Source: a virus. From it: 34,621 nucleotides of DNA. The stretch lies in the IMG/VR virus record IMGVR_UViG_3300033571_007995, positions 1 to 34,621 of that record. One strand, written 5' to 3'. The position numbers and the translations under genes were made by a program. Every line of letters starts with the position of its first letter. The stretch's first letter is position 1. A model generated the notes under the pieces. The model saw nothing but the letters and a program-made list of their open reading frames with translations. It did not search any database and was not told the DNA's origin. This document shows, piece by piece, positions 52-17,445 of this stretch.

Positions 52-596
52 TGCCGCCGCCGGCCGCCGCTCCTGCCGTCCCGTCCCTCGAGGCGCTCGC
101 CGAGCAGGTCGGCGTCGCTGCGCGGACCCTTCGCGAGCACCGACGCAACGGCGCGCCGTGGCCGGCATCCGGTCGCGCTCGCGACCTCGAGCGCTGGCTC
201 GTCGGCTACCAGGCCTGGCGCCTTGAGCGATTCGGCCGGTCGCGGAAACAAGACGGCGACGAGCCGGACGTCGACGAGGCCGAGGGCGAGGCCTGGACCG
301 CCGAGCGCAAGAAGTGGCTCGCGTTGTTGGCGAAAACCGAATGGCATTTGCGCACCGGCCGGCTCGTTCCGCGCGAGGAGGTCGTCGAGTTCGCGACGAA
401 GGCCGCGCTCGTTGTGCGAAACCGGCTGAACAGCGCCGTCAGCAAACTCGCGCCGCTGGTGCACGCCGCCGAATCCGAGGAGGCAGTCGAGGAGCTGCTG
501 CAGCGCGAGGTCGACGAAATCCTCGAGACGTTCGCGCGCGGACTGGAACCCCTGACCGTCGAGGAGGTCGTCGATGCCGACGAGCCTGCTGAGTGA
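51..596 (+). CDS. terS: Terminase small subunit, Nu1-like
   Basis: This 181-aa protein is likely the DNA-recognition subunit of the packaging motor, binding the packaging site and delivering it to the large subunit. Residues about 12-40 (SLEALAEQVGVAARTLREH) look like the helix-turn-helix that begins Nu1-type small terminases. An acidic linker follows, then a helical region (about 80-150) with TAERKKWLALLAKTEWHLRTG, typical of the self-association part of the family. The ATG overlaps the preceding stop by one base and has GAGGG at 35-39 upstream. It overlaps the large terminase gene by 23 bases, the usual order. The family call rests on the HTH, the size and the position; the sequence is not close to lambda Nu1. 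Confidence 0.8.
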   Translation: MPPPAAAPAVPSLEALAEQVGVAARTLREHRRNGAPWPASGRARDLERWLVGYQAWRLERFGRSRKQDGDEPDVDEAEGEAWTAERKKWLALLAKTEWHLRTGRLVPREEVVEFATKAALVVRNRLNSAVSKLAPLVHAAESEEAVEELLQREVDEILETFARGLEPLTVEEVVDADEPAE

Positions 597-2463
597 CGCG
601 CACATTCTCGCCGCATTCCGGCAGCCGGCGCGGCTTACTGTTTCGCAGTGGGCGGACTCGTTCCGCGTTCTCGACGAGCGTTTCGCCGCCGAGGCCGGCA
701 GATGGCGCACCGATCGCGCACCATACGCGCGCGAATGGATGGACTCCGCGACCTGCCGCTGGGTCCGCCGCGTTTCGATCATGGCGAGCACGCAGGTCGG
801 CAAAACGGAGGCCGCAAACAACGTGCTCGGCTACTTCGTCCACCAACAGCCGGCGCCGGCGATGCTCGTCATGCCTCGCGCAGACGACGCTCGACTCGCT
901 GCCGAGCGCCGCATCCTGCCGATGATTCACGCGAGCGCCGAGCTGCGCGCCGAGCTGACCGATCGCGCACACGACGCGAAGTCGCGCGAGATTGCGTTCC
1001 GCAGGTCGGTTCTCTACTTCCGCGCCGCGCAGTCGCCGGCCGACCTGGCGTCCGTTCCGGTGCGCGTCGTCTGCGGCGACGAAATCGACAAGTGGCCGAG
1101 CTGGACCGGAAAGGAAGCAAACCCGCTGTCGCTGCTCGCCGAACGAACGCACACCTACCCGCGTTCGCATTTGGTGTTTCTCACCAGCACGCCGACGACG
1201 CGCGACGGCCTTATCTGCAAGGAATACGAAGACGGCGACCAGCGGTCGTTCTGGCTGCCGTGTCCGCATTGCCAAACGATGCAGGTCCTGCGATGGCCGA
1301 ACCTCAAATGGGACGCGGACCGGATCACGACCGCGCGCGACATGCGCGTCGAGCGCCAGGCGTGGTTTGCATGCATCCGATGCGGCGGGCAAATCGAGGA
1401 TGCGCACAAGCCCACGATGATGCGCGCCGGTGTATGGGTCCCGCGTCGCTACACGCTCGAGGAGTGGCTCGCCGGCGCTCGCGAGGCCGACCGCGTCGAG
1501 CACCGCAGCTACCACATTTGGGCGGCGTATTCTCCCTGGCTGCCGTGGTGGCGCATCGTCGCCGAGTTCTTGAGCAGCAAGGACGAACCGTCGCGCTTGA
1601 TGAACTTCACCAACAGCTGGCTGGCTGAAGTCTGGGAGGAGCGCATCGACGACGTCGGCGACGAAGCAGTCGCAGCGTCAATCGGCACGCTGCGCCAGCG
1701 CGAAGTGCCGGCCGAGGTGCAGCTCATCACGGGCAGCGTCGACGTCCAGAAGGACCGACTCGAGTGGTCGATTCACGGCTGGGGAATGAACGAAGAAACC
1801 TGGCTATTGGCGGCCGGCAAGGCGACTCGCTGGGAGGAGCTGGCCGAGTCGGTCGTGCTGTCGACCTGGGGCGAACAGCAGCTGCGGCCGCGCGCTGTGC
1901 TGATCGACTCGAGATTCCGTCGCGACGAGGTCATCGACTTCGCGCGACAGTTCGCGCCGATCGTGCGCATGATTGCCGGCGTCGAACGCAACAACCCGAT
2001 CCCGTTCGCGACGCAGAAGCTCGACCGGCATCCGCGAACAGGTCAACCCATGGCCGGCTGCACCATTTGGACGGTCAACGTCGGCATGTTCAAGGACATC
2101 GCGCACGCTCGACTCGCGCGCTCGAGCGACCGCGAAGCCGGCCAAGCCGGCCGAATCCATCTGCCGATGGACCTGCCCGAAGACTACCTGCGGCAGCTGT
2201 CGTCCGAGCACAAGGTGCGCGAACGCAGCCGCTCGCGCATCCGAACGCGATGGACGCTGCGGCCTGGTCATCAACGCAACGAGGCCTGGGATCTTCTGGT
2301 CTACCAAATCGCCGCCGGCCGCATGATCCGCGCCGACTTGCTGCGAGACGACCAGTCGCTCGTCGGACTGCCGCCGGCGCCGGCTTCGCCGTCAGTTCGA
2401 CCGCCGAGGCCGCCGGGCCGCCGTGACGGCAGGTCGCGCTTTCCGTTGCTTGGGGGCCGGTGA
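574..2463 (+). CDS. terL: Terminase large subunit, GpA family
   Basis: This 629-aa protein is the ATP-driven DNA translocase and nuclease that fills the prohead. It has the GpA two-part layout. In the N-terminal ATPase, the Walker A-like ASTQVGKTE lies at about 71-79 (Lys77), and the Walker B strand VVCGDEID places Asp169-Glu170. The C-terminal nuclease begins near GSVDVQKDRLEW (Asp390), followed by VLIDSRFRRDE (Asp445), candidate metal-binding acids. A CPHC...CIRCG pair at about 230-270 may bind zinc, as in other GpA proteins. The ATG at 574 has a strong GAGGAGG (562-568) at good spacing and lies inside the end of the small-subunit gene. Length is close to lambda gpA (641 aa). It is consistent with cos-type packaging, although the cos site itself is not identified. 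Confidence 0.95.
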   Translation: MPTSLLSDAHILAAFRQPARLTVSQWADSFRVLDERFAAEAGRWRTDRAPYAREWMDSATCRWVRRVSIMASTQVGKTEAANNVLGYFVHQQPAPAMLVMPRADDARLAAERRILPMIHASAELRAELTDRAHDAKSREIAFRRSVLYFRAAQSPADLASVPVRVVCGDEIDKWPSWTGKEANPLSLLAERTHTYPRSHLVFLTSTPTTRDGLICKEYEDGDQRSFWLPCPHCQTMQVLRWPNLKWDADRITTARDMRVERQAWFACIRCGGQIEDAHKPTMMRAGVWVPRRYTLEEWLAGAREADRVEHRSYHIWAAYSPWLPWWRIVAEFLSSKDEPSRLMNFTNSWLAEVWEERIDDVGDEAVAASIGTLRQREVPAEVQLITGSVDVQKDRLEWSIHGWGMNEETWLLAAGKATRWEELAESVVLSTWGEQQLRPRAVLIDSRFRRDEVIDFARQFAPIVRMIAGVERNNPIPFATQKLDRHPRTGQPMAGCTIWTVNVGMFKDIAHARLARSSDREAGQAGRIHLPMDLPEDYLRQLSSEHKVRERSRSRIRTRWTLRPGHQRNEAWDLLVYQIAAGRMIRADLLRDDQSLVGLPPAPASPSVRPPRPPGRRDGRSRFPLLGGR

Positions 2464-2720
2464 TGACGGCCGCCGGCGATGATGACACGGTGCCGGTCGT
2501 GCCGTTCGTTCCGTTTCGCTGTCCACGGTGCGGACGGCACAAACCGCGAACGCACGCGGTGCAGGGGCGACTTCGCCGGCATCAATGCCAGGCCTGCGGC
2601 TGTTCGTATCGGTCGCTCGAGATGACCCTCGAGGAGGCGCGTCGCCATTTCCTGCAGAATCCGCAGTGCGGATCTACTCGACGCAACGACGCAACCGACC
2701 AGCTAGCATCCGACCAGTGA
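2460..2720 (+). CDS. Small zinc-ribbon protein
   Basis: This 86-aa protein carries one clear zinc ribbon: CPRCG at about 21-25 and CQACG at about 44-48, separated by a basic loop (GRHKPRTHAVQGRLRRH). The C-terminal half is helical and charged, with no membrane segment. GTG 2460 or ATG 2463 can start it; both overlap the terminase stop. It sits between the large terminase and the head-completion gene, where lambda has no such gene. Zinc ribbons of this size in phages include transcription factors (Ogr/Delta) and the Mu Com translational activator. The basic loop would suit nucleic-acid binding, but which target is unknown. A terminator-like hairpin follows it. Confidence 0.75.
   Translation: MMTAAGDDDTVPVVPFVPFRCPRCGRHKPRTHAVQGRLRRHQCQACGCSYRSLEMTLEEARRHFLQNPQCGSTRRNDATDQLASDQ
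2704..2709 (+). promoter_or_regulatory. TAGCAT motif (possible -10)
   Basis: TAGCAT matches the -10 consensus at four of six positions and lies just before the structured gap at 2721-2823. I find no convincing -35 hexamer 16-18 bases upstream. The same hexamer recurs at 26140 and 31084 in the other gene-poor stretches, the only reason it is listed. Confidence 0.15.
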
Positions 2721-2721
2721 T

Positions 2722-2739
2722 GCATGGTCGAGGCCATGC
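2722..2739 (+). other. Short hairpin after the zinc-ribbon gene
   Basis: GCATGG (2722-2727) and CCATGC (2734-2739) form a perfect 6-bp stem with a 6-base loop, starting one base after the stop codon at 2718-2720. No T tract follows. It stands directly before the stronger terminator-like hairpin. Confidence 0.45.
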
Positions 2740-2776
2740 GTCGCGAGGTGTCCGAAGGCTAGAGAGACGAGAGGGC

Positions 2777-2807
2777 GCCGAGGCTGGCTGTCGGCCTCGG
2801 CAGTTTT
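2777..2807 (+). terminator. Probable intrinsic terminator or attenuator
   Basis: GCCGAGGC (2777-2784) and GCCTCGGC (2794-2801) form a perfect 8-bp G+C-rich stem around a 9-base loop, followed two bases later by TTTT (2804-2807). This is the classic intrinsic-terminator layout, though the T tract is short. It lies 17 bases before the esterase-gpW start, so it could separate packaging-enzyme expression from virion-protein expression, or attenuate read-through. Confidence 0.55.
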
Positions 2808-2823
2808 CTCGACCAACAAACGC

Positions 2824-4899
2824 ATGGCAGTCGTCCCCGTCCTACTCAATCTCGGACAGAGCAACGCAGGGCCGTACGCGGACTACGCGACTTGGCAGCC
2901 GCGCAACCTCGGCATCGCTGTAAACTTCGAACCCCTGTCCAGCGATCACGCGACAGGCGGCTACAACGACACCTTCGCGATGCCAGGCACCTGGCCGACG
3001 CGACACCAAATCGCGCCAGTGAAGGGCGCCGCGGTGCAGTCGCTTCGCTACCTCACGTTCTACAATCCGATCGCGACCGGCTTGGGCTATACGCAGTTCC
3101 CGCATCGCAGCATCGTCGAGGACCTGCTCATCGAATCCGCGCCAGGCGCGACGAAGCTGCAGCTCAACACGACCTGGCAATACACGCCGGTCGCTAAGAC
3201 GATTACGCGCTCGCGAACTGGAACGACGCACACGGTCACGGCGTGGGGCGGATTCGGCGCGGCCGGCAAAGTCGTCGAGGTGACGCCGGCGTTCAATCCG
3301 CCGCCGCAAATCGGCGAGCAGATTGAATACCGGCTCTACAGCGGCGCGGTGTCGCCGAACACGTCGACGGTCAAACTCGACATGCGATTCGGCGGCGACT
3401 TCGGCAACGGCAACTGGGAAGGGTCGCTGGCCGGCATGCGGCTTCGCTGCGTCGCCGGCACGAATGTCGGTGTCTCGCGCAGCTGCGACGCGCTGACGCT
3501 GGGCGCCGGCACCATCGTCGAACTGACGACGACGGCCGCGTGGCCGAGCCTGCCGCAGTCGGGCGATGAATACGTTCTCGAGCCGCATCCGCTGCCGAGC
3601 GGCGCCGCAGTGCCGTTCCGCAAGTGGGGTTATTTCTTGCCGTGGTCGCCGCTCGAGGGCCAGGCGCTCGGCGCCGCGAAGTCGATCACGTCGTTCGCAG
3701 CGACGGTCGTGCCAGGCACAATCGAGATTGCGTTCAACAACAGCGACGGCGCGATCGAGCTGAACGACTTCGTGCAGGTCCGCGCCGCGACGGTGTCGGC
3801 CTATAGCGCGGACTACCGCGTCGCGGCCGTGACGCCGACGGCGATCTACGTCATCGGCACCTTCACGACGACCGACACCGGCGTTCTGCGCAAAATCGGA
3901 AAGCAGAACCCTTACCCGCCGGGGTTTTCGTTCCCGAACCACCACGACCAGCCTCCGCTCTATCAACCGTTCCGCAGCGGCTCGCTCATGTATGGCGCCG
4001 GCGCGCGCTTTGCTTCCGAGCGCGCAGCGTTTCACGTCACGTTCGCGAACCGGCTGCAGGAATACCTGGGCAAGACGGTCTACGTCGCGAGCTGCGCAGT
4101 CGGCGGCGCCAGCCTCACGCACAACGAGCTGTCGCCGATTGTGACCATCGACGCGATCGGATGGTTTGACCCTCGGCAGCAAAACTACTTCACGCCTGGC
4201 GAACCGAACGGCGCGTTCGCTCGGGTTCTCGAGGTGCTGGACACGGTCAAGGACGCGCTCGCGCTGCAGGGCGACACGGCGAACGTCGTCGGCATCACGT
4301 TCGTTCAAGGCGAAAGCGACGCGCAGGCATTCGACACCGCGGCCAAATACCAAGACGCGCTGACCGGCTTCAAGGCCGCAGTGCGCCAGGCGATCGAGGA
4401 CCGCGACCTTTGCACGGGCGAGGCCGCGCAGATCCCGTGGATACAGCCTAAGGTCAAGAACACGTTTCCTTGGACCTACTTCGAGCGCGTCAACACGGCG
4501 ATCGCGACGGTCGCCGAATCCGACCGCTACATGGCGACGTGCGAGGTGCAGGACCTGGCATGCCAGACGGAAGTCGTCGGCGGCGTCACCTACCAGGTGC
4601 ACTACACCGGCGACGCGGCGACGACCCTCGCCGGCCGCATGTTCGAACAGTGGCGCACGCTGGCCGAGCTGCCGGCTGAAACGTCCGCTGCAGCGACGCC
4701 TGCGCCGACCGGTGCGACGGACATCCTCGCGCTCATCGACCAGGCAATCGCGAGCGGCGGCGACGTCGCGGCCTACACCATCAACGGCCGCACGGTGCAG
4801 CTGCGGTCGATGGACGAACTAATCAAGGCGCGCAAGTACTTCGAGGCACAAGCCGCGCGCGCAAACGGCCTGCGCAGAACCAAGGTGCGATTCGGATGA
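2824..4899 (+). CDS. SGNH/sialate-esterase-like enzyme fused to a gpW-like head-completion domain
   Basis: This 691-aa protein has two parts. Blocks of an SGNH hydrolase of the sialate O-acetylesterase type are visible: LNLGQSN with nucleophile Ser13, CAVGGASL near 425, VQGESDA at 494-500, and VHYTGDAATTLAGRM with His593 as the likely catalytic base. Between blocks one and two lies an insertion of roughly 300 residues, rich in Thr, Gly and Val and probably beta-structured. The last 60 or so residues (about 632-691: ILALIDQAIASGG, YTINGRTVQLRSMDELIKA) resemble lambda gpW, the 68-aa protein that stops DNA leakage and joins head to tail. The gene sits between large terminase and portal, exactly where W lies in lambda, and overlaps the portal gene by 4 bases. 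No Shine-Dalgarno precedes ATG 2824. The esterase is likely displayed on the virion; its substrate (cell-surface sugar acetyl ester) is inferred. Confidence 0.8.
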   Translation: MAVVPVLLNLGQSNAGPYADYATWQPRNLGIAVNFEPLSSDHATGGYNDTFAMPGTWPTRHQIAPVKGAAVQSLRYLTFYNPIATGLGYTQFPHRSIVEDLLIESAPGATKLQLNTTWQYTPVAKTITRSRTGTTHTVTAWGGFGAAGKVVEVTPAFNPPPQIGEQIEYRLYSGAVSPNTSTVKLDMRFGGDFGNGNWEGSLAGMRLRCVAGTNVGVSRSCDALTLGAGTIVELTTTAAWPSLPQSGDEYVLEPHPLPSGAAVPFRKWGYFLPWSPLEGQALGAAKSITSFAATVVPGTIEIAFNNSDGAIELNDFVQVRAATVSAYSADYRVAAVTPTAIYVIGTFTTTDTGVLRKIGKQNPYPPGFSFPNHHDQPPLYQPFRSGSLMYGAGARFASERAAFHVTFANRLQEYLGKTVYVASCAVGGASLTHNELSPIVTIDAIGWFDPRQQNYFTPGEPNGAFARVLEVLDTVKDALALQGDTANVVGITFVQGESDAQAFDTAAKYQDALTGFKAAVRQAIEDRDLCTGEAAQIPWIQPKVKNTFPWTYFERVNTAIATVAESDRYMATCEVQDLACQTEVVGGVTYQVHYTGDAATTLAGRMFEQWRTLAELPAETSAAATPAPTGATDILALIDQAIASGGDVAAYTINGRTVQLRSMDELIKARKYFEAQAARANGLRRTKVRFG

Positions 4900-6560
4900 C
4901 GACGCAACCGATCCGCAACGCGGCGCCTCGAGCGCCGATCTACGCCGGCGCTGCCGGCCGCATCGCGCGACTTGTCGACGCGGCTGTCGGCCTGGTGTCG
5001 CCAGGCATCGCGCATCGCATGCGCAAGGCGCGGCTGCAGAGTCAGGCGCTGCTGGCATACGAAGCCGCGACGTTCACGCGCACCTTCCCGGTGCAAACGA
5101 GCGGATCGGCCGACAGCGAACTGCTGCCCGACCTGCAGAAGCTGCGCGACGTTTCTCGAAACATGGTGCGCGATGACGCGCATGCAGCGGCCGCGCTTGG
5201 CATCCTCGAGGAGGCAATCGTCGGCGCCGGCATCCGTCCGCAGAGTTCCGCAACGCCGGAGGCGACCGGCCTCACGACCGAAACCTGCGCAGCATGGCGC
5301 GCGGCATGCGACGCCGAATGGCACCGCTGGGCAGAACAGGACGCAGACGCGACGCGCCGAGGCACGTTCTACGACCTGCAGGCGCTCGCGCTTCGGTGCA
5401 GCATCGTCGACGGCGAAGCGATCGCGCACGCGGTCATCGGCGGCGACGGCCTGATCGCTTGCGAGCTGATCGACGCCGACCGGCTGCAGTCGCCTGGCAT
5501 GGTCGATCGCGACCGCATTCGCGGCGGCGTCGAGCTGGGCAACTTCGGCGAGGCGATTGCGTATCACATCCTGCCGTCGCATCCCGACGACACGCTGCTC
5601 GGCGCGCGCTACACGGTGCAGCCGGTGCGCATCGACGCCGAATCGAACGGCATCACGATCGTGCAGCACGTCTTCCGCCGGCTGCGGCCAGGCCAGACGC
5701 GCGGCGTGCCATGGCTGTCGGCGTCTGCTCAGTATTTGCAGCACCTGCACCACTACCTCAACAGCGAACTGATTGCAGCGCGCGCCGCGAGCAACTACGC
5801 GATGTTCATCCGTCGCAACGTCTCGACGGTCGATCAAGACATCTTCCCGGTGCAAGGCAGCGAGACAGGCGCGACGCAGGACTATCACGAGTTCCTGGAG
5901 CCTGGGACGATCGAATACCTCAACGAGGGCGAGGAGCCGGTCGCGTTCACGCCGAACCGGCCTGGCAGCGCGTTTACCCCGTTCGTGGAGCGCATGCTGC
6001 GCGCGATCGCGTCGAGCATGGGCCTGTCCTACGAAATCGTCGCGAAGGACTTCGGTCGCATGAACCTGAGCAGTGCGCGCGCAATGCTGCGCGAATGCCA
6101 GCGAGGATTCGACATGCACCGCGCGCGACTGAACCGTCAGTTCAATGCGCCATGGTGGGCGAACGTGATTCGCATGGCAGTCGCTTCGGGCCGCATCGCG
6201 GCGCCGGCCGGCTTCCTTGACGATCCGCAACCGTTCCTCGCAGCGCGGTGGGTCGCACCGTCCTACGGAATGGTCGACCCCGGCAGCGACGTCGCAGCGG
6301 CGAAAGCCGCATGCGAGGCGAACCTTTCGACGCCTTACGAAGAGGCCGCGAAATACGGCGCGGACGCCGAGCAGATTCTGCTCGCGCGCGCGCGTTTCTT
6401 GGCGCGAGCTGCAGAAATCGAACGCGAGTTCGGCCTTGAGCCTGGCACGCTGACGAAGGAGTCGCCGGAGCGCATCGAAAGCGTCAGCCGGCAGGCCGTC
6501 GAAGACGAGCAGTCGCCGGCAGACATCGCAGAAGACGAAACGGAGAACGCAGATGCATGA
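4896..6560 (+). CDS. Portal protein, lambda gpB family
   Basis: This 554-aa protein should form the dodecameric ring at one capsid vertex through which DNA enters and leaves. The N-terminal third has the family pattern LRDVSRNMVRDDAHAAAALGILEEAIVGAGIRPQ (given here as two adjoining stretches: RDVSRNMVRDD and AAALGILEEAIVGAGIRPQ). Later come FYDLQALALRCSIVDGEA, DRDRIRGGVE and the conserved segment near 375-410 (SMGLSYEIVAKDF, then NLSSARAML). The C-terminal 60 residues are acidic and Ser/Glu-rich. Length matches lambda gpB (533 aa). ATG 4896 overlaps the preceding stop by 4 bases, with AAGGTG upstream. Confidence 0.93.
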   Translation: MTTQPIRNAAPRAPIYAGAAGRIARLVDAAVGLVSPGIAHRMRKARLQSQALLAYEAATFTRTFPVQTSGSADSELLPDLQKLRDVSRNMVRDDAHAAAALGILEEAIVGAGIRPQSSATPEATGLTTETCAAWRAACDAEWHRWAEQDADATRRGTFYDLQALALRCSIVDGEAIAHAVIGGDGLIACELIDADRLQSPGMVDRDRIRGGVELGNFGEAIAYHILPSHPDDTLLGARYTVQPVRIDAESNGITIVQHVFRRLRPGQTRGVPWLSASAQYLQHLHHYLNSELIAARAASNYAMFIRRNVSTVDQDIFPVQGSETGATQDYHEFLEPGTIEYLNEGEEPVAFTPNRPGSAFTPFVERMLRAIASSMGLSYEIVAKDFGRMNLSSARAMLRECQRGFDMHRARLNRQFNAPWWANVIRMAVASGRIAAPAGFLDDPQPFLAARWVAPSYGMVDPGSDVAAAKAACEANLSTPYEEAAKYGADAEQILLARARFLARAAEIEREFGLEPGTLTKESPERIESVSRQAVEDEQSPADIAEDETENADA

Positions 6561-13426: not shown

Positions 13427-15634
13427 ATGGCACGAAGTGAAAAGCGGACCCTCAGCATCGAGGCGCGCCTCAAAAACTACATCAAAGGCGACCTGACAAT
13501 ACTGGAGCGCAACGTCGGTCGCTTCGCGCTGAATGCAGTGCGCAGCTTTCAAACGCTGAAGGGCGCGCTGTTCAACGTCAAGACGGCGATCGGCGGCATC
13601 GGCGTCGCGTTCGGTGCGATCAAGTTCGCGCAGTTCGCGCGCGACACGGCGCAACAGGCCGACGACCTGCAGGACCTGGCGAACGCGACCGGCGACCTGG
13701 TCGCAAACCTGAGCGAACTGCAGGCCGCGTTTCAGCTCAACGGCATCGAGGCCGAGGCCTTTGAGGGCGTCGTTCTCGCCGTCGCGAAGGCGCAGCGCCA
13801 GGCGCTCGACGGCAACACGAAGGTCGCGGACGGATTCGCCGAGCTGGGCGTCACGCTCGAGGAGCTGCGCAACCTGGCGCCGTCCGCGCTGTTTGAGCAA
13901 ATGTCGGAAGGCCTTGAGGTCTACAACAGCGAACAGGACAAAGCGGTCGCGCTCGGCAAAGTCGTTCCGAAGCAGTTCCTCGAGCTGCTGCCGGCAATCG
14001 GGCAGGGCGTGCAGGAGTTCCGCGAGAACATCCTCGAGGTGCGCGACCTCGGCGCAACGCTGACCGACGAACAGGCTGCGAGCGCCGCTGCCGTTTCCGA
14101 CGCGCTCGACAAACTCAACCTGGCGGTGCAGGCCGTCGGCCGTTCGTTCCTCGCAGCGTTCGGGCCGGAGGTCGCCGGCGGCCTCGAGCAAATCGCGAAG
14201 CTCATCGTCGCGAACCGTGACGCGATCGCCGACTTCGCGAAGGTCATCGCCGAGGTCGTCGTCGGTGCGGTCAACATCCTGATCGACGTCTTCATCGAAC
14301 TCGTCGACGTCATCGAAGAGATTCCAGGCATCGACCTGGTCGATCCGAAGCAGACGGCAGAACTAGAACGGCAGGTCGCGCTGCTGACGCAGACGCAAAA
14401 CATCCTGCGCGCGCAGCAGAGCTACCGCGCATCGGAGGAGTTCAACCGCGGCAAGCAGGACGCGATCGACCGAGCGCAGCTGCAAATCGACGAACTGAAC
14501 CAACAGATCGAAGGCCTTGAAGCCTCGACGCGTTTGCGCGAGCTGCGCAAGAACCTGCAACAGCAGGCCGGCAACGCGGCCGCGCAGGTCCGCGCGCAGT
14601 TCGACGCCGCGGCGCGACAGCAAACCGGAGCCGCGCCGGCAGCAGCCGCAGCAGCGCCGGAGCGCGTCGGCATCCCGTCGCTTGGTTTGCCGTCGCTCGA
14701 TGCGGTCACGGAATACGCGCGCAAACTCGGCACGCAGGTCGGTTCCGTTTTCCGCGCGACGCGAGGACAAACGACGCCGGTCGCAGCACCGGAGGACGCG
14801 CTCGCGCGCGACCGCGAGACGCTGGCAATACAGCAACAGGTCGCCGCGCTTCGCGAGGACCAGCGCGCAATCGCCGACCTGAAGACGGAGGCCGACAAAC
14901 TCGACCTGCGCGCGCTGTTCATCGACGGCAAAGTCAGCGCACAGGAATACGAGTCGACCCTTGACCGCATCAACCAGCGGCAGCAGCGCCTCAAGAATCT
15001 GGTCACGGGCGGCGACTTCTGGGGCGGCTTCTCGGCCGGCGCTCGCGAGTCGATTCAACAGCTGACCGACTTGACGGCAGCCGGCCGCGAAGCCGGCGCG
15101 CAGCTCGTCGACGCGTTCGGCAGCGGACTGACGGACGCGTTCACCGACATCATCATGGGCACAAAGAGCGCCGGCGAGGCGTTCAAGGGCCTTGCCGTTC
15201 TGATGCTGCAGGAGATTGCGCGCATCGCCGCGAAGATGCTGTCGCTGCGCATCATCTCGTCGATCTTCGGAGGACCGGCCGCGACGCCGGCAATGGAGAA
15301 CGGCGGCATCCTGCCGGGCAACGTGACCGGCACCGCACCGGTGCGCGCGTTTGCTCGAGGCGGCATCGCTCGTCGACCGACGATGGCGCTGTTCGGCGAA
15401 GGGCGCACCGCCGAGGCCTTCGTTCCGCTGCCAGACAACCGTTCGATCCCTGTGTCGTTTGTGGGCGGCGGCGCGCAGACGGGCACGAACGTCTCGATCA
15501 ACATCACGGCAATGGATTCTCGCGACGTGCAGCGCGCGCTCCTTGAGCAACAGGGCACGCTGCGAAACATTTTCACGAACGGCATTGAGACACGCAGCAG
15601 CATGCGCGGAGCCGTTCGCCGGGCGGTGTCCTGA
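13427..15634 (+). CDS. Tape measure protein
   Basis: This 735-aa protein sets tail length. It is mostly helical with an Ala/Gln/Leu-rich coiled-coil centre (about 300-400 and 450-540). Two hydrophobic stretches (about 277-300 and 582-615) could cross the host membrane during DNA ejection. Near the C-terminus, ENGGILPGN, FARGGIARRPTMALFGEG and EAFVPLPDN match the Gly-rich end common to lambda gpH-type tape measures. GGAG at 13415-13418 supports ATG 13427. By the usual 1.5 angstrom per residue rule the tail should be about 110 nm long (inference). Confidence 0.92.
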   Translation: MARSEKRTLSIEARLKNYIKGDLTILERNVGRFALNAVRSFQTLKGALFNVKTAIGGIGVAFGAIKFAQFARDTAQQADDLQDLANATGDLVANLSELQAAFQLNGIEAEAFEGVVLAVAKAQRQALDGNTKVADGFAELGVTLEELRNLAPSALFEQMSEGLEVYNSEQDKAVALGKVVPKQFLELLPAIGQGVQEFRENILEVRDLGATLTDEQAASAAAVSDALDKLNLAVQAVGRSFLAAFGPEVAGGLEQIAKLIVANRDAIADFAKVIAEVVVGAVNILIDVFIELVDVIEEIPGIDLVDPKQTAELERQVALLTQTQNILRAQQSYRASEEFNRGKQDAIDRAQLQIDELNQQIEGLEASTRLRELRKNLQQQAGNAAAQVRAQFDAAARQQTGAAPAAAAAAPERVGIPSLGLPSLDAVTEYARKLGTQVGSVFRATRGQTTPVAAPEDALARDRETLAIQQQVAALREDQRAIADLKTEADKLDLRALFIDGKVSAQEYESTLDRINQRQQRLKNLVTGGDFWGGFSAGARESIQQLTDLTAAGREAGAQLVDAFGSGLTDAFTDIIMGTKSAGEAFKGLAVLMLQEIARIAAKMLSLRIISSIFGGPAATPAMENGGILPGNVTGTAPVRAFARGGIARRPTMALFGEGRTAEAFVPLPDNRSIPVSFVGGGAQTGTNVSINITAMDSRDVQRALLEQQGTLRNIFTNGIETRSSMRGAVRRAVS

Positions 15635-17445
15635 TGCCGGCAGCACGCTGGGCAGACATCGTCGAGCAGGGCGCCGGCACAACGATCACGACCATCGGCA
15701 CGCAGGCCGGGCCGCCTGGCGGCGACGGCTGGGTCATCGTTGCGCGATTGCCGGCGAGCGGCATGCCGACCGGCAGCCGCAAGTGGGGCGTCATCGTGCA
15801 GGCGCATGTTCACAACCTGACCGTGAGCAACGGCACGGCGCTTCCTCGCGCGCTGCTGCAGCTGTCGCTGGGCAAGACGGGCGGCTTCCGATCGTCGACG
15901 CACACCTGGTCGTATCCTGTCTGGCAGTCGCTTGGCGCGCTGTCTGCGGTTCCGGTGCAGTTCATGTTTGTGCAGGACGCGCTGTCCGCCGACCCGTCGT
16001 TCGGAGCTGCGACGACTCTGTCGTCGTCGGCCGACGAGCTGTGCATTTGGGGCCGGTTCTTCGCGAACGGCGACGTCATCAACAACCGGCAAATGTCGGC
16101 GTCAGTCAGCGAACTGACCTGGCTGTGGTGGGACTTGACCACGGTGCCGGCCGGCGACCAGCTGGTCGAACAATACTGGCCCACATCGCTGCCGCTGACC
16201 TCGAGCAACTCGCCGCTGTGGATGACCACGAACCAGCCTGGCGTCGACGGCGAGAAGTGGCTGCATTTCATGGGAGTCAACTACCGGCCGCCGGGCCGCG
16301 ACTTCTTGGTGCAGCGGCAGGCGCCGTCGTTCCAGCTCGGCATGGAGATTCTGGGCACGCCGGCGTTTCTCGACGCGAAGGTCGGCAGCAACGGCCGCTG
16401 GGGCCTGAGCCGCGGCTTCGATATGACGCAGACGGCGTTCAGCTGGAACCCGATCATGCAACAGGTCGGCTGGTGGTATGGGACGAACCCCGTCAGCGCA
16501 TCGGCTAGCTATCGGCCAGGCATCCGAGGCAACGACCGCGCGTCGCTGACCGGAACCTCGAGAACGCTGCTGCTCGGCGTCAAATACCTGGGCATCCGCG
16601 TCGAGAGTTTGGCCGACGTTCTCGATCGAACCGAGCAGGAGGTGCTCGCCGTCACCGGCAACCGCTACGGCGGCAACGGCGACGTCTTCCCCGAAGGCCA
16701 GACATACCTGTCGCTTGAGCGACCTGCGACCGGCCTGGTGTCTGCGCCGGCGGTGCTGACGCATGGCATCGTGCAAACGACCGGAACGCACGACTACTGC
16801 GCGGAAATCTGGACGAACGCCGGCAACGCGCTGCGCAGCTGCATCGTGCACGCGCAAACGCGAGCGAACGAACTGGAGGGCGTCAGCGTCATCGCGGCCG
16901 CTCGCTACGGACTATCGCCGACCTCGGGCGCCATCCAATACCGCGCACGCTGGACGGGCGGCCTCAACGTGAGCAACTCGCGCCGCGATGTTCGCGACGC
17001 GCAGATTCTGCAGGTCAACCTGGTGAAGGATGCCGACCCCGATCCAACGCTGCCGGCGACCGCGACGTATCTGGTCTTGACGCCTGGTCGCGAAAGCGCG
17101 AGCGCTGCATCGCTCAACCCTTTGCCGATTGCACCGGACGCAGACGCGAGCGAGGACGCGCAAGTGCAGGACGAGCGCATCGTCGGCGCGACCGGCTACG
17201 TTCGCAGCTGGCCGCTGTTCGCGACTGTTCGCCGGCAGTGGGTCTTGACTTGGTCGAACCTGAACGGCGCAAACAGCTCGACGCTTTACGACTTCCTGCG
17301 CGACAATGTCGCCTTTCGATGGCGCGCGCCTCGAGAGTCGACCGACATCGCGGTCGTGCAAACCGACGCGCCGCAGCTGGAGCAAGTGAGCGGACACGTC
17401 TACGCGCTATCGGTGCGCATCGTCGAACTCATCTGGACCTCCTAG
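15634..17445 (+). CDS. Distal tail protein with C-terminal gpM-like domain
   Basis: This 603-aa protein directly follows the tape measure, the place of lambda gpM (109 aa). Its last 90 or so residues (RSWPLFATVRRQWVLTWSNL, TLYDFLRDNVAFRWRAP, YALSVRIVELIW) show the gpM pattern of a ring-forming tail-tip protein. The roughly 510 residues before that have no recognised match; they are Trp/Tyr-rich and beta-like (LTWLWWDLTTVPAGDQ, QPGVDGEKWLHFMG) and could be an exposed carbohydrate-binding or adhesin domain. ATG overlaps the previous stop by one base. The fusion makes it several times larger than gpM. Confidence 0.7.
   Translation: MPAARWADIVEQGAGTTITTIGTQAGPPGGDGWVIVARLPASGMPTGSRKWGVIVQAHVHNLTVSNGTALPRALLQLSLGKTGGFRSSTHTWSYPVWQSLGALSAVPVQFMFVQDALSADPSFGAATTLSSSADELCIWGRFFANGDVINNRQMSASVSELTWLWWDLTTVPAGDQLVEQYWPTSLPLTSSNSPLWMTTNQPGVDGEKWLHFMGVNYRPPGRDFLVQRQAPSFQLGMEILGTPAFLDAKVGSNGRWGLSRGFDMTQTAFSWNPIMQQVGWWYGTNPVSASASYRPGIRGNDRASLTGTSRTLLLGVKYLGIRVESLADVLDRTEQEVLAVTGNRYGGNGDVFPEGQTYLSLERPATGLVSAPAVLTHGIVQTTGTHDYCAEIWTNAGNALRSCIVHAQTRANELEGVSVIAAARYGLSPTSGAIQYRARWTGGLNVSNSRRDVRDAQILQVNLVKDADPDPTLPATATYLVLTPGRESASAASLNPLPIAPDADASEDAQVQDERIVGATGYVRSWPLFATVRRQWVLTWSNLNGANSSTLYDFLRDNVAFRWRAPRESTDIAVVQTDAPQLEQVSGHVYALSVRIVELIWTS

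Follow-up and report, generated by a model that had tools for sequence, protein, structure and literature searches.

Fusion of an SGNH esterase domain to head-tail adaptors in uncultured phages

What is a carbohydrate esterase doing in a phage gene that lies in the place of a head-completion protein? The window, by which we mean the whole 34,621-nt stretch of DNA analysed (positions 1 to 34,621 of IMG/VR virus record IMGVR_UViG_3300033571_007995), raises this question with one gene between its terminase and portal genes. A preliminary description, made from the sequence alone, read this gene as a sialate O-acetylesterase-type enzyme fused to a protein like lambda gpW, in the slot where W lies. 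Phage fibres that bear SGNH deacetylases, and adaptors with additional domains, have been described before; our literature searches found no report of a fusion between a carbohydrate esterase and a head-tail adaptor.

One frame with an esterase half and an adaptor half

The features of the locus that matter here are as follows.

574-2463, plus strand: terminase large subunit (GpA); profile matches at 7.5e-68 and 5.3e-57
2460-2720, plus strand: 86-aa protein with paired CxxC (zinc-ribbon-like), between terminase and fusion
2777-2807, plus strand: terminator-like hairpin and T-run, read from sequence, just 5' of the fusion start codon
2824-4899, plus strand: esterase-adaptor fusion, 691 aa, a single frame without internal stop
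2824-4668, plus strand: SGNH/SASA esterase region, residues 1-615 (approximate), from Pfam SASA and predicted fold
2854-2865, plus strand: block I GQSN, residues 11-14, with putative nucleophile Ser13 (codon 2860-2862)
2911-4023, plus strand: mostly beta insert of ~370 aa, residues ~30-400, between blocks I and II, from motif positions and model strands
4306-4320, plus strand: QGESD block; E497 is invariant in all 55 complete frames
4600-4602, plus strand: putative catalytic His593; the DxxH Asp is replaced (Tyr590 in the alignment)
4669-4716, plus strand: Pro/Ala/Thr-rich linker, residues 616-631; low pLDDT at 620-626
4717-4896, plus strand: gpW-like head-tail adaptor, residues 632-691, from PHROG 2545, the R4C match and predicted fold
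4896-6560, plus strand: portal protein, lambda family (6.1e-84); its start overlaps the fusion stop

The single esterase-bearing frame and its place in the W slot were both as first described. A protease gene and then a Mu gpT-like capsid gene lie 3' of the portal gene. The window also encodes, downstream of the fusion, a tape-measure protein and a J-like protein of 1383 aa. Therefore, the phage is a siphophage. We rejected an antisense frame of 586 aa at 2842-4602, which we take to be a shadow of the coding strand in GC-rich DNA. Compared with locus L001, both halves of the fusion are under purifying selection (dN/dS: esterase, 0.061/0.484; adaptor, 0.015/0.093).

We searched with the C-terminal part separately. 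The last 64 aa alone matched PHROG 2545 'head-tail adaptor Ad1' (3e-9), PHROG 118 'head-tail adaptor' (2.1e-5), and PHROG 5774 'head-tail joining' (9e-4), and a PHROGs scan of the whole protein placed head-tail adaptor families at residues 635-690 (E of 2.4e-7). The nearest solved relative is the adaptor of phage R4C, which hhalign matched to the window tail with a probability of 91.5% and 30% identity over 53 aa. The gpW family itself (PF02831) had no match to the window protein, C-terminal segment included, at E<=1; lambda gpW itself matched at 5.8e-38. A direct hhalign comparison of the window tail with lambda gpW was not significant. Lambda gpW is tied to the window tail indirectly and weakly, by matching PHROG 2545 (0.0021) and PHROG 118 (0.031). 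AlphaFold predicted a helix at 631-643, strands at 649-653 and 656-660, a helix at 663-680, and a C-terminal arm. This is the element order of gpW in the lambda virion, where cryo-EM shows helix 4-22, hairpin 23-36, helix 37-54, and a C-arm (PMC10721106). Size and gene position are also alike, but lambda gpW is a free protein of 68 aa. Therefore, the proposed resemblance to gpW holds in element order and through the PHROG link, but not in direct comparison, and the tail is a gpW-like adaptor, nearer to R4C and PHROG 2545, that is not a PF02831 member.

The R4C adaptor helps to place the other half. This protein of a Dinoroseobacter phage forms a dodecamer and carries its N-terminal Ig domain on the outer side of the capsid (PDB 8GTD; PMC10276861). 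It and the PHROG 5774 family share with the window protein a homologous C-terminal domain, the slot between terminase and portal, and an extra N-terminal domain. However, the extra domain of R4C is an Ig fold of ~106 aa and not an enzyme. Fusion to an adaptor in the W slot should bring the window esterase to the neck. The fusion is the only head-tail adaptor detected, with no second gpW-like frame found in the whole window. We also considered a separate gpW made from an internal start. This was rejected, since no usable start is common to the relatives and loci L003 and L066 have none whatever. With no shared internal start and no second adaptor, every subunit of the ring should therefore carry an esterase.

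Pfam matched the 691-aa protein to SASA (PF03629) at residues 404-609 (E of 8.1e-8; 32.6 bits against a cut-off of 24.8), as the preliminary description had anticipated, and to nothing else. For the fold we used the second of two AlphaFold runs (18 rows; pLDDT 73; pTM 0.67), in which the first half of the esterase has middling confidence; the first run (6 rows; pLDDT 53) was left out of the fold search. VIA-align matched the esterase model to the CE6 acetylxylan esterase 1zmb (Z of 22.0), At4g34215 (2apj; 21.7), the tailspike of cyanopodophage Pan3 (9vyh; 21.4), and NanS (20.0), with 215-255 residues across these matches. The search was also run with Foldseek. The model thus has the SGNH fold of the CE6/NanS class. 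The window protein shares fold and motifs with the CE6/SASA esterases 1zmb, At4g34215, and NanS and differs from them in its phage adaptor tail and in an insert of ~370 aa that separates block I from block II. This insert is the region of greatest length variation and possibly binds glycans.

The window protein has Ser13, Gly428, G496-E497-D499, and His593. Among its 55 complete relatives (see below), position 13 holds Ser in 43 of the 54 rows that could be aligned, the GE pair is present in all 55, and His593 is present in 51. The other 11 alignable relatives have Asn, Gly, or Glu in place of Ser13, with the domain retained. The Asp three residues before the His (DxxH) is absent from the window protein and its nearest relatives and present in most other classes; it is not universal in the SASA/CE6-like SGNH family. 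Acetylesterase activity of the window protein is plausible from these motifs, but it is uncertain because the DxxH Asp is absent and Ser13 is lacking in 11 of 54 relatives. These two points, together with the large and variable beta insert, would also suit a non-catalytic decoration, one that binds glycans (of the host or of surfaces) or that gives the neck stability, in the way proposed for the R4C Ig domain. The conservation of Ser, GE, and His argues against a decoration, and so do the exchanges described in the next section.

Recurrence, re-fusion, and exchange

We scanned IMG/VR with patterns seeded by the esterase sequence, and once with a pattern seeded by the gpW-like tail. This found 62 distinct frames of the window-type esterase, of which 55 are counted as complete; among the latter, L083 has just the second half of its esterase. 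Because the patterns were short, more distant or unfused relatives may be missed. All 55 run on into a C-terminal domain that is adaptor-like or, in two cases, another domain in the adaptor slot. No free-standing esterase of the family was found in these scans. The fused members are all from uncultured phages; cultured phages encode these adaptors as separate proteins. GenBank phages had no relative of the window protein, and for the other classes only adaptor halves matched there. Two pattern scans of bacterial genomes found no relatives.

BLAST linkage sorted the C-terminal domains into four groups. Ten frames are gpW-like, 11 belong to DnaT_2/PHROG 477 'head-tail adaptor Ad1' (E of 7e-30 to 2e-34), and 32 belong to the podophage adaptor family PHROG 394 (8e-21 to 6e-41). 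PHROG 394 includes BPP-1 Bbp14, 'tail tubular protein A', and 'head completion adaptor', and the class matches the PDB connector 8ck1_E at 3.3e-10. The remaining two domains (L017 and L051) had no identification by PHROGs and are termed adaptors from their position. They are ~155 aa long (7939-8388 in L017; 7234-7707 in L051), lie in the adaptor slot between the capsid and Neck1 genes, and are possibly a new adaptor family. The slots occupied by the classes are terminase-fusion-portal, capsid-fusion-Hc1, capsid-fusion-nozzle, and capsid-fusion-Neck1, and each is the proper one for its adaptor. The core claim of the preliminary description is stronger than its author thought, because the esterase family is fused to several adaptor families in both siphophages and podophages.

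Several other features of these loci were seen. The small CxxC protein next to the terminase gene is kept in every gpW-class locus examined and in L096. In most loci, across three adaptor classes, a strong terminator-like hairpin ends ~10-30 nt 5' of the esterase start (the window, L001-L003, L005-L007, L012-L015, L022, L023, L026, L028, L040, L045-L050, L065-L067, L074, L075, L077, and L081). These hairpins differ in sequence between loci; they may lower expression of a 12-copy adaptor or mark the edge of an exchanged cassette. In phage BPP-1 (L101, 5001-5130), the tblastn match of the PHROG 394 class continues in frame for ~40 codons upstream of bbp14 and covers the end of bbp15, which is possibly a fusion remnant or chance. 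One podophage with a PHROG 394 fusion (G004, the record of L072) has a frame of 3586 aa at 27648-38408, after the neck and internal-protein genes.

Did one fusion spread, or were there several? When the four classes are mapped onto a maximum-likelihood tree built from the esterase part only, they need 8 changes (minimum of 3; shuffled mean of 20.9). A careful tree of 22 rows needs 6 class changes, and these placements have good support: L002 (DnaT_2) lies within the gpW clade, L017 within a DnaT_2 clade, and L089 (PHROG 394) with DnaT_2 members. The AU test rejected a single clade for the gpW class and likewise for the DnaT_2 class. L096 has an adaptor of the gpW-like type (67% identical) that bears a different SASA esterase (Pfam 2e-8). 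Its esterase barely resembles the window family (probability of 10%) and is non-orthologous, and the neighbour genes are those of the gpW-class fusions. Fusions of acetylesterases to head-tail adaptors have therefore arisen several times. The L096 protein (1001-4156; 1052 aa) consists of an N-terminal half of ~540 aa without assigned identity, the SASA esterase, and the gpW-like adaptor.

These data bear on two other explanations. Chance, an assembly artefact, or a neutral gene fusion is scarcely conceivable. The fusion is not chimeric, because it is seen in many independent contigs (it is retained in L001, L003, L005, L006, L007, L065-L067, and L088, for example), and purifying selection and repeated origins also speak against an accident, which the recurrence refutes. 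Alternatively, the fusion might be cleaved after translation or assembly, leaving the adaptor alone in the neck and a soluble esterase that clears coats or lysis debris. The Pro/Ala linker between the domains and the head protease that the phage encodes would allow this. However, there is no conserved separate start, no free-standing family member was found in the scans, and a released enzyme would not need the fusion that all 55 frames preserve with their differing adaptors. We regard cleavage as distinctly improbable.

Between close relatives, the esterase differs far more than the adaptor. In DNA comparisons of the window with L001, the flanks are 92-99% identical, the esterase 70-91%, and the linker and adaptor start 99%. 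Between L003 and L066, the surroundings are ~90-97% identical, but the esterases share 51% of their amino acids and the adaptors 98%. L012 and L002 have 44% identity in the esterase and 85% in the adaptor. By these comparisons, the esterase half is an exchangeable cassette, and the adaptor is its constant anchor. Genome-wide, the structural genes that diverge most between L003 and L066 encode the esterase, J (62%), and a tail protein of 598 aa (45%). For genes of the terminase, the capsid region, and the tape measure, identity is mostly 92-98%. This is the pattern that would be expected of genes for host-surface interaction. The window encodes a 603-aa tail-region protein (15634-17445) with no PHROG match; no gene differs more between L003 and L066 than the homologue of this one (45%).

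Both kinds of exchange weigh on the non-catalytic decoration raised above. The replacement in L096 is another SASA esterase and not a binding fold, and the esterase itself is the exchanged part, unlike a structural stabiliser. A decoration is therefore unlikely, but it deserves some weight.

A proposed role at the phage neck

The explanation that we hold to be probable as a whole is a neck adaptor ring that carries outward-facing acetylesterases, as an exchangeable apparatus matched to the glycans of the host. After DNA packaging, ~12 copies of the fusion would dock under the portal through the C-terminal gpW-like domain and its C-arm. The docked ring would close the head and receive the stopper and tail, and the flexible linker would hold the N-terminal SGNH acetylesterases outside the capsid, as a collar of about a dozen. 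We infer the position outside the neck and the copy number by analogy with the R4C, lambda, and JBD30 structures. The collar would bind and O-deacetylate acetylated glycans of the host surface (capsule, O-antigen, or exopolysaccharide), which would help the virion to hold to the coat or pass through it as the tail tip makes its way to the final receptor. The activity, its substrate, and a role in host range are likewise inferred. Lineages without the nucleophile probably only bind. The enzyme half would act as a host-matching cassette, passed from one phage to another and from one adaptor type to another.

Podophages are known to eject large enzymes, and by that precedent the esterase might be packaged within the head and ejected with the DNA, as the preliminary description also suggested. 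However, adaptor rings are dodecameric and join after packaging, by replacing the terminase (PMC11445458), and R4C has its N-terminal domain on the exterior of the capsid (PMC10276861). It is therefore very improbable that the esterase is packaged within the head, and an outward collar is the reading that we keep.

The benefit of the collar to a siphophage is not obvious, given the distance between neck and tail tip. In phages such as the window's, the likeliest use would be contact from the side or movement through a thick coat, and this is the weakest step of the proposal. The R4C authors considered the Ig domain of their adaptor unlikely to act in adsorption (PMC10276861). In the podophage class, the role may be like that of a tailspike because the neck is near the cell surface; non-exhaustive PHROG searches, covering some other genes in the records of this class, named no tailspike.

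Known virion enzymes offer partial parallels. Receptor-binding fibres of Klebsiella prophages and G7C gp63.1 carry SGNH domains with esterase activity, linked to the recognition of capsule or O-antigen (PMC13123978), and other such domains occur in Pectobacterium phage Possum (PMC9569702), the Pan3 tailspike (9vyh), and the N4 tail (9lc0). These share the SGNH fold with the window protein, with Pan3 among its closest matches; they are virion-borne, and several have been shown to deacetylate host glycans. However, they ride on fibres or spikes and are not covalently part of an adaptor ring. P22 gp4 is a dodecameric adaptor with a reported muramidase, and a review names it the sole lysin located at a neck (PMC5380687). 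It is an adaptor like the window protein, but its activity was reported for the adaptor itself, without a fused esterase.

The evidence suggests a sugar-trimming, swappable collar round the virus neck. We lean slightly towards a broader view, in which adaptors serve generally to mount a second apparatus of host recognition, itself exchangeable: a neck ring of ~12 glycan esterases that is repeatedly re-fused in long- and short-tailed phages and co-varies with the receptor proteins of the tail tip. Fusion accounts for the unusual pairing of SASA with adaptor domains in these proteins of environmental phages, and the clean exchange at a short linker makes the role of the enzyme on a constant adaptor directly testable. 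Tail fibres and spikes are where depolymerases and deacetylases of virions are normally sought. Should the neck ring be an enzyme platform as well, many phages annotated only with a 'head-tail adaptor' or with a large 'hypothetical' protein may have an unseen determinant of host range.
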